A model generated the notes under the pieces. It saw only the letters and a program-made list of their open reading frames with translations. It searched no databases and was not told the DNA's origin. Below, one piece after another: positions 42,052-45,803 of a stretch of 64,000 nucleotides of DNA; position 1 is the stretch's first letter, and every line of letters starts with the position of its first letter. The stretch is from contig NZ_JAHKPU010000010.1 of the NCBI RefSeq assembly GCF_018860505.1, forward strand, positions 62,001 to 126,000, read 5' to 3'. The translations under genes and the position numbers were made by a program. This DNA comes from Pacificibacter marinus (GTDB lineage: Bacteria > Pseudomonadota > Alphaproteobacteria > Rhodobacterales > Rhodobacteraceae).

Positions 42052-42459
42052 TTAAAACAGTTTAGGAGGCGCACCTTTGGGGGCATCGCGTTGGTCTATG
42101 CCCATTTTCAACGCGCGCCCGATACGGTGAGCTAACGCAGACCATGCTATTGCCGTGTCGGGGGGCACAGTGTCTTGGAGCGTCTCATCAAATAAGGCCA
42201 GCCAAAGCGCGAAATGGTCGCCCTTGATGTCGGAGGCTCTCATGTGCGCTTGCTGTGGGTTGCCGTCAAAACTGCGGTCCAAACCAATGGCATTGCGCCA
42301 AAAGCTGGCGATTTTCGCCTCATGCGGGCGCCAATCCTCAACATGATTGGCAAAGACAGGCCCGAGATCAGGGTGCTGGCGTACGCGAGCGTAAAAACGT
42401 GTCACGACTTGATCGATTTGATCTGACGTGATCGGGAATTTTGGTGGCAGGGGCGTCAT
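42052..42459 (-). CDS. Group III truncated haemoglobin
   Basis: This 135-residue haem protein is of the trHbIII (P) group. Its pattern is V..FYARVR.HP.LGPVF..H (about 19-39), W..HEAKIASFWR (43-55), the probable proximal His72 in NPQQAHMR, and HFALWLALFDETL (82-94). These proteins bind O2 or NO and are thought to handle NO or peroxide in low-oxygen settings. AAAGGA precedes the ATG. The gene is divergent from the ileS leader. I saw no FNR box close by. Confidence 0.93.
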   Translation of the reverse strand: MTPLPPKFPITSDQIDQVVTRFYARVRQHPDLGPVFANHVEDWRPHEAKIASFWRNAIGLDRSFDGNPQQAHMRASDIKGDHFALWLALFDETLQDTVPPDTAIAWSALAHRIGRALKMGIDQRDAPKGAPPKLF

Positions 42460-42564: not shown

Positions 42565-42593
42565 TTTACCCCGCGCGCTGACAGACGTATAAG
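42565..42593 (+). promoter_or_regulatory. Sigma70-type promoter of the ileS leader
   Basis: TTTACC (42565-42570), a 17-bp spacer and TATAAG (42588-42593) put the transcription start seven bases further at A42601, the first base of an ATG. Matches to consensus are 4/6 and 5/6. Confidence 0.6.
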
Positions 42594-42600
42594 CTGCCTT

Positions 42601-42654
42601 ATGAGATATCTTTTGGTCGCGATTATTATTCGAATTACCAGCCCGGCGCTCTGA
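42601..42654 (+). CDS. Putative leaderless isoleucine leader peptide (17 aa)
   Basis: The frame encodes MRYLLVAIIIRITSPAL and then TGA. Four of 17 codons are ATT (Ile), with three in a row, and Leu/Val codons precede them. There is no Shine-Dalgarno; the predicted transcription start is the A of the ATG. The codons before the stop form one arm of a strong hairpin (42642-42669). ileS starts 80 bp after the stop. This is the design of an attenuator responding to uncharged tRNA-Ile. Confidence 0.55.
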   Translation: MRYLLVAIIIRITSPAL

Positions 42655-42669
42655 ACTTGAGCCGCCGGG
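42642..42669 (+). promoter_or_regulatory. RNA hairpin after the Ile codons in the ileS leader
   Basis: cccggcg (42642-42648) and cgccggg (42663-42669) pair perfectly, with inner ct/ag pairs across a bulge. The stem spans the leader stop codon. Alternative pairing of ggcgc (42645-42649) with gcgcc (42689-42693) is possible, so two exclusive structures exist. No T-tract follows. Confidence 0.55.
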
Positions 42670-42734
42670 ACAAGGCGTATGGACCACCGCGCCGCCCCAC
42701 CTATTCCCAGATGTTATCGACAGGATTTGACGCG

Positions 42735-45700
42735 ATGTGCGCTGATACGCCCGACACTGCCGCCACTGAGGCGACCGACTATAAAACCACTTTGAACTTG
42801 CCAAAAACCGACTTTCCGATGCGTGCGGGCCTGCCCAAACGCGAACCCGGTTGGTTGGATCGCTGGGCGCAAATCGGCGTCTACGACCAATTGCGGGCTA
42901 AGGGCAAAGCCGACAGTCGCACGCCTTTCGTGCTGCATGATGGCCCCCCCTATGCGAATGGTAATTTGCACATCGGTCACGCGCTGAACAAAACCATCAA
43001 AGACATCATCGTGCGCTCGCATCAGATGATGGGCCATGACGCGCGTTATGTGCCGGGTTGGGATTGTCACGGCTTGCCGATTGAATGGAAGATCGAAGAA
43101 CAATACCGTGCCAAGGGCAAAAACAAAGACGATGTGCCTGTGGTGGATTTCCGTCAAGAGTGCCGCAAGTTTGCAGAAAACTGGGTCGGTATTCAACGTG
43201 AAGAATTCAAGCGTATCGGTATCAACGGCAATTGGGATGATCCCTATTTGACGATGAATTTCCATGCCGAGGCTGTGATTGCCGATGAATTCATGAAGTT
43301 CTTGATGAATGGCACGCTGTACCAAGGCTCCAAGCCTGTGATGTGGTCGCCTGTTGAAAAAACAGCGCTGGCCGAGGCCGAGATCGAATACCACGATCAC
43401 AAATCGCACACGATCTGGGTGCCGTTTAAGGTGATAAAGAATCGCGCGTTGATTGCAGTCAGAAACGATGGCAATGACCATCACGCTGGTTCGGTCAGTG
43501 AGCAGACGGAACGAAAGAAGCAGTTGAGTGATGCCCGTGTCGTGATCTGGACCACGACCCCTTGGACGATTCCGTCAAACAGAGCTGTCGCCTATAATCC
43601 GAAAATCAACTACGGCCTTTATAAAGTGACCGAGACCGAAGAGGAAAGCTGGACCGCAGCTGGCGATTTGTATGTCTTTGCTGATGCTTTGGCCGCGGAA
43701 TGTCTGGCCAAATCCCGCGCCACGGCTTTTGAACGTGTGCGTGATGTGACTTCTGAAGAACTTGGCGCCTTGACCCTTGCACATCCGTTTGCCGGTCTTG
43801 AAGGTTCAAAAATTGACAAAGCCACTTTCACTGAACTCAACCCGAATATGGCGGGTCGCGCATTGGCCGACGACGTCGGTTTCTGGGACTACGACGTTCC
43901 CATGATCGACGGCGATCACGTCACGGCAGATGCCGGTACAGGTTTCGTGCACACCGCGCCAAGCCACGGTGCGGACGACTACGAATGTTTCGTTGCGCGC
44001 AACTGGATTGACCGGATGACTCACAATGTCGGCGAAGAATCTGAATTCTTGCCGCATGTGCCATTCTTTGCAGGCCTGCAAGTCTTTGACCGCAAAGGCA
44101 AAGAGGGCAAAGCAAACACTGCAGTGATCGCCAAGCTGGTTGAGGCTGGCGGCATCATTGCGCGTGGTCAAGTCAAGCACAGCTACCCACATTCTTGGCG
44201 CTCCAAAGCGCCGATCGTATTCCGCAACACGCCGCAGTGGTTCGCCTCTGTCGATAAGAAACTTGATGACGGCATGGGCGAATACGGCGATAGCATCCGC
44301 GAACGCGCGCTGCGCTCCATCGATGAACTGGTCACTTGGACACCGCAGACAGGTCGCAACCGTTTGTATTCCATGATCGAAAGTCGCCCCGATTGGGTGC
44401 TCTCGCGCCAACGCGCTTGGGGTGTGCCTTTGTCGTGTTTCACCAAAAAAGGCCTGCTGCCAACAGACCCTGATTTCTTGCTGCGCAACGTTGAATTGAA
44501 CGCGCGGATCAAGGCCGAGTTCGAAGAACACGGCGCGGATATCTGGTACACGGATGGGTTCAAAGACCGCATCTTGGACGGTATCGCCAATCCTGACGAT
44601 TATGACCAAGTGTTTGACGTGTTGGACGTTTGGTTCGATTCTGGATGTACGCACGCTTTTGTTCTGCGTGACCGCGAAGACGGGACTGAGGATGGCATCG
44701 CCGATGTCTACATGGAAGGCACCGACCAACACCGTGGTTGGTTCCACTCATCCTTGTTGCAGGCCTCTGCGACCAAAGGCCGAGCGCCCTATAAAAATGT
44801 TGTGACGCATGGGTTCACGCTGGATCAAAAGGGCATGAAAATGTCCAAATCTATCGGCAATACTATCGTGCCTGAAACTATCATCAAACAATATGGCGCG
44901 GATATTTTGCGTCTCTGGGTGGCGCAAGCTGATTATACCAACGACCAACGGATCGGGCCTGAAATTCTGAAAGGCACGGCGGACAGCTACCGTCGTTTGC
45001 GCAATACTATGCGCTATATGTTAGGCTCATTGGCTGATTTCTCGGACGCAGATCGCGTGGAACCATCTGATATGCCTGAGCTTGAGCGTTGGGTTTTGCA
45101 TCGTTTGACAGAAGTTGATGAGGCCGTGCAAAAAGGGTACCGCAGCTTTGATTTCTCGGGCGTTTGGCAGGCTGTTTTCACATTCGCCACTGTCGATCTG
45201 TCGGCCTTCTACTTTGATATCCGCAAAGACGCTTTGTACTGTGACGGCGATACATTGAACCGCCGCGCGGCGCGCACTGTGTTGGATATCTTGTATCACC
45301 GGATCACCAAATGGCTCGCGCCAATCTTGGTGTTCACGATGGAAGAAGTCTGGCTTGAGCGATTCCCAGGGGGTGACAGCTCAATCCACCTTGAGGACTT
45401 TGTTGAAACGCCAAGTGATTGGAAAGATGAGGCTTTGGCCGCGAAATGGGCCAGCATTCGTCAGGTGCGCCGTGTCGTGACCGCTGCTTTGGAAATCCAG
45501 CGCACAGAAAAGGTCATCGGGGCATCGCTTGAGGCGGCACCTGTTGTGCATATCGAGGATGCGAGCATTGTTGCTGCGCTGAGAACCGTATCTTTTGATG
45601 ATCTGTGCATCACGTCGGGCATTTCTATCACAACTGATCCGTCGCCGGATGAGGCCTTCCGGTTGACCGATGTGACGGGGGTTGGGGTTGTGTTTGAAAA

Positions 45701-45803
45701 AGCGACAGGTGAGAAATGTCAGCGTTGCTGGAAAATTCTGCCAGACGTCGGCACGCACAGTCATTCCGGTGTCTGTGGTCGCTGCGATGATGCTTTGAGC
45801 TAA
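42735..45803 (+). CDS. ileS: Isoleucyl-tRNA synthetase
   Basis: This class I synthetase charges tRNA-Ile and edits valine. From ATG 42735 it is 1022 residues, beginning MCADTPDTAAT, with AGGA 9 nt upstream; an earlier in-frame start at 42657 lies in the leader structure. The HIGH motif is in NGNLHIGHALNKT (about 71-83). The editing domain is an insertion with TTPWTIPSN. KMSKS is in GMKMSKSIGNT. A C-terminal zinc finger CQRCW...CGRC closes the protein. A strong terminator follows. Confidence 0.96.
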   Translation: MCADTPDTAATEATDYKTTLNLPKTDFPMRAGLPKREPGWLDRWAQIGVYDQLRAKGKADSRTPFVLHDGPPYANGNLHIGHALNKTIKDIIVRSHQMMGHDARYVPGWDCHGLPIEWKIEEQYRAKGKNKDDVPVVDFRQECRKFAENWVGIQREEFKRIGINGNWDDPYLTMNFHAEAVIADEFMKFLMNGTLYQGSKPVMWSPVEKTALAEAEIEYHDHKSHTIWVPFKVIKNRALIAVRNDGNDHHAGSVSEQTERKKQLSDARVVIWTTTPWTIPSNRAVAYNPKINYGLYKVTETEEESWTAAGDLYVFADALAAECLAKSRATAFERVRDVTSEELGALTLAHPFAGLEGSKIDKATFTELNPNMAGRALADDVGFWDYDVPMIDGDHVTADAGTGFVHTAPSHGADDYECFVARNWIDRMTHNVGEESEFLPHVPFFAGLQVFDRKGKEGKANTAVIAKLVEAGGIIARGQVKHSYPHSWRSKAPIVFRNTPQWFASVDKKLDDGMGEYGDSIRERALRSIDELVTWTPQTGRNRLYSMIESRPDWVLSRQRAWGVPLSCFTKKGLLPTDPDFLLRNVELNARIKAEFEEHGADIWYTDGFKDRILDGIANPDDYDQVFDVLDVWFDSGCTHAFVLRDREDGTEDGIADVYMEGTDQHRGWFHSSLLQASATKGRAPYKNVVTHGFTLDQKGMKMSKSIGNTIVPETIIKQYGADILRLWVAQADYTNDQRIGPEILKGTADSYRRLRNTMRYMLGSLADFSDADRVEPSDMPELERWVLHRLTEVDEAVQKGYRSFDFSGVWQAVFTFATVDLSAFYFDIRKDALYCDGDTLNRRAARTVLDILYHRITKWLAPILVFTMEEVWLERFPGGDSSIHLEDFVETPSDWKDEALAAKWASIRQVRRVVTAALEIQRTEKVIGASLEAAPVVHIEDASIVAALRTVSFDDLCITSGISITTDPSPDEAFRLTDVTGVGVVFEKATGEKCQRCWKILPDVGTHSHSGVCGRCDDALS

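Follow-up and report, generated by a model that had tools for sequence, protein, structure and literature searches.

The window, a stretch of 64,000 nucleotides of Pacificibacter marinus DNA, carries the isoleucyl-tRNA synthetase gene ileS and, ahead of it, a candidate promoter, a short leader reading frame and two hairpins (Table 1). The leader promoter is intergenic because the gene upstream sits on the other strand. This divergent gene (42052-42459, minus strand) encodes a bacterial-like globin (Pfam PF01152, 1.2e-5). Seven bases separate the end of TATAAG from the ATG at 42601-42603, which opens the peptide MRYLLVAIIIRITSPAL. Its four Ile codons, all ATT, start at 42622, 42625, 42628 and 42634, the first three being consecutive; the stop codon TGA occupies 42652-42654, and ileS follows 80 bp further on. 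The original prediction had described the two promoter hexamers with their 17-bp spacing before ATG 42601, the 17-codon frame with its Ile codons, the last codons of the frame as one arm of a strong hairpin, and the distance from the leader to ileS. All of these read in the window as claimed.

Table 1. Features of the ileS leader region, in positions of the window
Feature	Position	Strand	Basis and remarks
Promoter, TTTACC-17 bp-TATAAG	42565-42570 and 42588-42593	+	Read from sequence; -10 peak of relatives
Leader ORF, 17 codons + TGA, MRYLLVAIIIRITSPAL	42601..42654	+	Probably leaderless; frame conserved
ATT ATT ATT CGA ATT (Ile Ile Ile Arg Ile)	42622..42636	+	Ile enrichment in Rhodobacteraceae leaders
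Core block CGA-ATT-ACC (R-I-T)	42631..42639	+	Amino-acid-only scan; proposed stall site ATT 42634-42636
Hairpin 1, CCCGGCGCTC / GAGCCGCCGGG	42642-42651 with 42659-42669 (one bulged base)	+	Folding, covariation; stop codon at loop start
Hairpin 2, GGCG...CGCC	42674..42693	+	Folding; seen in Rhodobacteraceae
C-rich, G-poor stretch	42694..42718	+	Base counts in 46 leaders; possible Rho loading region (role inferred)
ileS, isoleucyl-tRNA synthetase	42735..45803	+	Pfam tRNA-synt_1 4e-124

Relatives of the leader were collected in two ways. The ileS loci of the Rhodobacteraceae were fetched via IleS alone, the motif being unused, and the leader was present in 27/27 (20 from the window's genus, the window included, and seven others). 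Most of these carry TATAAG or TATAAC 6-7 bases before the ATG, and examples of their peptides are MTFVAIIIRIISPAL, MDYLVFIIIRIMTPALQG and MSHPRFIIIRIITPAI. The exact core pattern CGAATTA-N4-CCCGG was found in 182/198 Rhodobacteraceae genomes, against 13/198 for the reversed control pattern. At the ileS loci of other alphaproteobacterial families, the leader lies directly upstream in 35 of the 87 usable loci and is absent from 52; this count excludes two loci that were cut and one from a genome already represented, and scores one further locus (L088) as being without a leader. The IleS-anchored loci comprise the best-scoring matches and 60 picked by hand from the IleS match list. Over the whole class, the core pattern occurs in 138/385 genomes and its reversed control in about 37/385. 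Some of the class-wide matches fall in coding regions, that of rho among them.

A covariance model (R1) was built, like the alignment A1, on 68 sequences preselected for at least six consecutive pairs and a hairpin of 22-30 nt. In the window's genome its single match is the ileS leader. With stricter filters, a sample of 398 genomes of the phylum gave matches in 51, each of them the window's own genome or a member of the same family or class; the number of genomes outside the class in this sample is not given. Between 41500 and 43500 of the window no Rfam family matched up to E = 1, and the T-box model gave no match ahead of ileS in the same search.

The original prediction depended on the frame and its run of Ile codons being conserved in close relatives, and the 27/27 Rhodobacteraceae loci bear this out. 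When the ileS upstream regions are aligned, as had been proposed, the leader ATG is kept and the stem changes are compensatory (covariation, see below). The conserved run of Ile codons is found in the Rhodobacteraceae and does not extend to the class, where the core consists of CGA-AUU and the hairpin. As far as these alignments go, the part conserved class-wide is an in-frame CGA-AUU-A(U/C/G)N, a four-base linker and a CCCGG...CCGGG hairpin, rather than the Ile run. Taken as comparative sequence evidence, these data make it almost certain that a conserved, functional leader lies ahead of ileS.

We assembled 133 distinct copies of the module from 58 IleS-anchored loci, 29 of 38 loci and 46 of 60 loci, the latter two sets coming from genome scans with the core pattern. 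Among the 38, seven were dropped as chance or coding matches and two as duplicates. The 60 had been hand-chosen from the class-wide listed matches, mainly those not at ileS, and 14 of them were dropped; several of these 14 are coding sequence, for example of rho or of ileS itself. Five duplicate cores were also removed. Since copies were chosen by hand, the counts per gene class are not prevalences: 100 copies precede ileS, 25 a small ACT-like gene, four an NTF2-like ORF, two an AAA_33 kinase, one ilvA and one ribF-ileS.

In 132 of the 133 copies the core is in frame with an upstream ATG, compared with 9 and 16 for the other two frames. Where only one ATG is a candidate start (76 leaders), matches to TATAAT are most frequent 6-9 bases upstream of it. 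Because the -10 box lies at this distance, the leader mRNA probably starts at, or within 1-2 bases of, the leader AUG and would thus be leaderless. The hexamers TTTACC/TATAAG are absent from the output of a consensus promoter scan of the window region, because the scan requires a T at position 6 of the -10 box. The sole match of that scan, ATGAGA-17-TATTAT at 42601-42629 (9/12, with 0.2 expected), lies inside the leader frame and would place the transcription start near 42636; this promoter-like site counts against the leaderless-start reading. For Methylorubrum, a transcription start mapped by dRNA-seq has been reported 150 nt before ileS; the hexamer TAGAAG ends seven bases ahead of this start (PMC9320726). 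The published promoter string was found, with at most two mismatches, in 8/149 genomes (family of G307), and in one of the eight (G704, locus L229) it is the leader promoter, TTCCAC-17-TAGAAG-CGCACC-ATG.

The core block was also recovered from amino acids only. Short ATG frames upstream of ileS at 116 loci were scanned for R, I/L/V/M, I/T/S/M/V/A/L, any residue and P, giving 65 matches where 4.2 were expected. The first codon was CGA in 63/65 matches and the second was ATT in 63/65. In 28 ORFs of the window, CGA makes up 3.7% of the Arg codons and ATT 34% of the Ile codons, so that a rare-codon reading was dropped for the pair, CGA being rare and ATT not. Although the core pattern constrained only the first base of codon 3, the third residue in the 133 copies is I (57), T (37), S (33) or M (6) and nothing else, and the sixth is A or V in 129/133. 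By these counts, the core block is constrained both on codons and on residues. With the linker left unfixed, four bases separate the heptamer CGAAT(T/C)A from CCCGG or CCCGA in 63 of the 64 in-frame heptamers upstream of IleS, and the odd one (L088) falls in coding sequence of another reading frame. A downstream partner for CGAAUUA was sought among AUUCG-like words and given up, as none was a top word in the ileS groups. ATTCG does occur in 7/24 ACT leaders (1.1 expected).

Hairpin 1 was examined by folding and by comparison. The local fold of the window at 42637-42694 is unusually stable (z = -3.0; 0/200 shuffles equally stable), whereas the whole 160-nt leader is not (z = -0.8; 47/200). Of the 133 copies, 97% form five or more consecutive pairs and 77% seven or more; with the downstream sequence shuffled, these shares are 34% and 5%. 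In this test the position of the 5' arm was set by the motif, and the sequences were not preselected for a stem. On the 68 preselected sequences, a choice that favours the stem, 76 cells were changed on both sides and still paired, compared with 24.4 +/- 5.2 in shuffles, none of the 500 shuffles reaching that value. The stop codon of the leader lies inside the hairpin in 95 of the 100 ileS copies. Hairpin 2 is present as GGYG...CRCC (a loose pattern) in 41/46 Rhodobacteraceae leaders; its arms are GGCG/CGCC in 33, GGTG/CACC in seven (both sides changed) and GGTG/CGCC in one.

The original prediction further invoked a switch between two RNA structures, and folding gave no such switch. When the ribosome was simulated by masking (window only), hairpin 1 was lost only with its 5' arm covered, and hairpin 2 was formed at every ribosome position tried. 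A classical 2:3 antiterminator in the Rhodobacteraceae, with the CGCC of arm 2 pairing with GGCG, is possible on paper and was rejected, as none of the simulated states of the window opened hairpin 2.

The link to isoleucine comes from two sides. Before the core, 23 Rhodobacteraceae leaders have 58 Ile codons, compared with 12.8 expected from shuffled bases, and 53 other leaders have 66 (22 each of ATT, ATC and ATA) compared with 18.8. At least one Ile codon precedes the core in 38 of these 53 non-Rhodobacteraceae leaders. Many leaders outside the Rhodobacteraceae have few Ile codons, and the third codon of their core is often Thr or Ser. The module is also found before other genes of the pathway. 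It precedes ilvA at one locus (L167; threonine ammonia-lyase, 1e-101, below the model cut-off), an ACT-like gene followed by the citramalate synthase gene cimA at a second (L130; TIGR00977, 2.8e-133, 445 bits against a cut-off of 450, the gene being cut), and an ACT-like gene followed by ilvA at a third (L206; 9e-65, gene cut). By gene order, this placement before ilvA, ACT-cimA and ACT-ilvA is an independent isoleucine link for the ileS leader. The isoleucine role first proposed for the leader thus gains from both the codon enrichment and the presence of the module before ilvA and cimA operons, and we regard the module before isoleucine genes across the Alphaproteobacteria as probably a built-in isoleucine sensor.

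Six copies precede genes without an evident role in isoleucine metabolism, namely those before kinases and NTF2-like ORFs; they were accepted partly for having an ATG and a hairpin. The P-loop kinases occur in two families (L142 in G413, AAA_33, and L210 in G304, assigned by eye) and look similar to each other, with no obvious isoleucine role. The NTF2-like ORFs, also assigned by eye, lie at four loci of one family (f37), and the one searched (L178) had no Pfam match above cut-off. At another locus (L219), the fetched stretch ends before ileS; here the module precedes ribF and perhaps serves a ribF-ileS operon.

What follows the hairpin differs between groups of copies. In the window region, a terminator scan found no intrinsic terminator, and no U-run follows the hairpin. 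In the 10 nt that follow the hairpin, a T4 run occurs in 0/46 Rhodobacteraceae leaders (0.1 expected), 7/51 other ileS copies (1.0 expected) and 2/24 ACT copies (0.8 expected). The post-hairpin stretch of the 46 Rhodobacteraceae leaders has a C fraction of 0.384 and a G fraction of 0.206, with C exceeding G in 45/46; the corresponding values are 0.347, 0.253 and 43/51 in the other ileS copies, and 0.290, 0.257 and 13/24 in the ACT copies. This C-rich stretch is compatible with Rho in the Rhodobacteraceae. In 14/25 ACT copies the leader frame continues past the hairpin. Read by eye, some ACT copies (e.g. L195 and L217) have a leader frame that overlaps the ACT start in another frame; because of this overlap, translation (interference or coupling) may be the output there.

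Several marks of a ribosome-mediated transcription attenuator are present: the leader ORF has its cognate Ile codons enriched in frame, it stands before genes for that amino acid (their control being itself predicted), and a covarying hairpin lies next to the regulatory codons. An intrinsic terminator with a U-run before the gene was found neither in the window nor in any of the 46 Rhodobacteraceae leaders. The leader peptide with its hairpin before ileS, probably leaderless as had been predicted, stands on the conservation of its frame and stem.

We consider it likely that the signal is the charging of isoleucyl-tRNA and that the ribosome stalls at the core AUU. For the direction of the effect and for the output step, be it termination or translation, we infer the following scheme. 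Transcription would begin at the leader AUG, and a 70S ribosome would start at the 5' end and trail the RNA polymerase. When Ile-tRNA is short, the ribosome would wait with the AUU of CGA-AUU (42634-42636) in its A site, and its leading edge would cover CCCGG, the 5' arm of hairpin 1; in nearly every copy, the distance from the first base of the core AUU to the start of this arm is 8 bases. With hairpin 1 blocked, ileS would be expressed. When Ile-tRNA is sufficient, the ribosome would pass, reach the stop codon within the hairpin and be released there; hairpin 1 would then form and expression would fall. The few copies that have a U-run would be shut down by intrinsic termination, and in the Rhodobacteraceae Rho or an effect on translation is the likelier route. 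Additional upstream Ile codons would sharpen the response. A stall at CGA-AUU that blocks an expression-lowering hairpin would explain the fixed spacing.

A ribosome covers about 15-16 nt from the first base of its P site. On this estimate, a ribosome whose A site is at the core AUU covers the window through about 42646, that is CCCGG only. If it waited at the three-Ile run instead, hairpin 1 would be unobstructed, and at the stop codon it would mask most of that hairpin. A ribosome stalled early in the run would not block hairpin 1, which counts against the charging model, as do the 52/87 loci of other families without a leader, the six copies before genes outside isoleucine metabolism, the absence of a U-run or terminator in the window and the lack of a clean alternative fold. 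Moreover, Ile-tRNA sensing by itself does not account for the near-fixed CGA-AUU or for the limit of residue 3 to I, T, S or M.

That limit on residue 3, together with the A or V at residue 6, is what would be expected if the nascent chain R-I-(I/T/S/M)-x-P-(A/V) itself stalled the ribosome near the Pro codon and so controlled the hairpin, perhaps in response to isoleucine or another ligand. However, the CCCGG arm of the pattern includes the Pro codon and the first base of codon 6, so that both may follow from the RNA; residue 4 is free, and the almost exclusive use of CGA and ATT in the amino-acid-only scan points to a constraint on codons or RNA rather than on the peptide alone. The upstream Ile enrichment also fits charging better, and we hold peptide arrest to be unlikely. 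The near-fixed heptamer, the four-base linker and the covarying hairpin could be the binding site of a protein, IleRS or another, that recognizes CGAAUUA and the hairpin, the ORF being secondary; the autoregulation of thrS is a model for such control. We find this very improbable, as the reading frame, the position of the ATG at the -10 box and the Ile enrichment are all conserved, and as IleRS need play no part at ilvA and the ACT/cimA genes, before which the element is also found. Finally, translation of the small ORF and the hairpin might merely set 5' stability or the level of translation, with no sensing of isoleucine. The window has no terminator and the isoleucine response is a prediction, both of which suit such a constitutive leader, but the Ile enrichment and the set of isoleucine genes behind the module would then go unexplained, and we give this reading very little credence.

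A bolder proposal can also be made, which we put forward as speculative and with a modest chance of being right. CGA-AUU-A(U/C/G)N-NNC-CCG would be a programmed stall cassette and a portable isoleucine sensor, of a kind that to our knowledge has not been described before. In it, a rare Arg codon would immediately precede the Ile codon used for sensing, the spacing to the hairpin arm to be covered would be constant, and the chain R-I-(I/T/S/M)-x-P would prolong the pause. Besides ileS, ilvA and ACT-cimA, the module would have reached a few genes unrelated to isoleucine metabolism as it spread in the Alphaproteobacteria, and in most cases it would act with no intrinsic terminator.

Sensing of tRNA charging through leader peptides with many branched-chain codons is known from the enterobacterial ilv/leu attenuators, which have Shine-Dalgarno leaders, mutually exclusive hairpins and U-run terminators and act on ilv/leu operons. 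The isoleucine leader shares with them the branched-chain-codon peptide and is predicted to differ in these other respects. Its closest relative in layout, among systems described in the accessible parts of the literature, is the trp attenuator rnTrpL/peTrpL of Sinorhizobium meliloti, in which the AUG of a 14-aa leader ORF is at the same time the start of the transcript (PMC10117765). Both are alphaproteobacterial and have a short leaderless ORF, the start being predicted from sequence in our case. Whereas rnTrpL is a Trp leader on trpE, the present leader has Ile codons, a near-fixed CGA-AUU block and usually no U-run, and stands before ileS and isoleucine biosynthesis genes. Closest in kind is the uORFC-8-2 motif before cysS in the Rhodobacterales, for which the main text of the report predicts ribosome-mediated attenuation with an AUG-started uORF (PMC8632094). 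It too concerns a synthetase gene and has cognate codons overlapping the stem; however, it uses Cys codons, precedes cysS, has been described for the Rhodobacterales only and has a U-run at its 3' end, while the isoleucine leader uses Ile codons, precedes several genes, is class-wide and mostly lacks a U-run.

In the accessible text on the ribosome-profiling-based genome map of Caulobacter crescentus, CCNA_03934 is a leader CDS of ileS, mentioned in a legend as a negative control (PMC4117421). Lying before ileS in the same class, it may be the same element, a likeness drawn from the description rather than from the sequence. Together with the Methylorubrum start, it was the only alphaproteobacterial ileS leader found in the literature searched, supplements and subscription papers being outside the scope; the supplement of PMC8632094 may list further uORFs. 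RNA control of ileS by the status of Ile-tRNA is seen in Actinobacteria, where the available text describes T-boxes before ileS (PMC1262725), which differ by binding the tRNA directly. The original prediction regarded ribosome-attenuated synthetase genes outside the phe/thr systems as not commonly known. The range is wider: in the parts of the reports available, leader-peptide control is given for trpS and leuS in Streptomyces (PMC1262725) and for hisS in bacilli (PMC2965389), in each case as a prediction or a mapped frame, a putative leader CDS is given for Caulobacter trpS mRNA (PMC4117421), and cysS has to be added, though not all of these have been tested.

If the charging model is true, the Alphaproteobacteria would have an isoleucine supply regulon on one compact RNA module, without an Rfam match, that ties the synthetase to the first enzymes of isoleucine synthesis. 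Attenuation would be leaderless and mostly terminator-free, and one Ile codon, set at a constant spacing from the hairpin, may be enough. The near-invariant CGA-AUU block makes questions of codon context and ribosome pausing testable.

The module also hints at functions for an uncharacterised family of ACT-like proteins. Their genes (about 90-145 aa) follow the module at 25 loci, those before cimA and ilvA included. None of the five members tested had a match above the Pfam cut-off or in NCBIfam. When an alignment of 18 rows (A2, in which the L195 protein is present twice) was searched against the PDB, three of the four weak matches were small subunits of acetolactate synthase (best E 0.056), and the ACT assignment of the family is tentative. 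At one of the loci (L166), the ACT-like gene is followed by a DUF4743 gene, and by eye several other ACT loci have similar genes after it.
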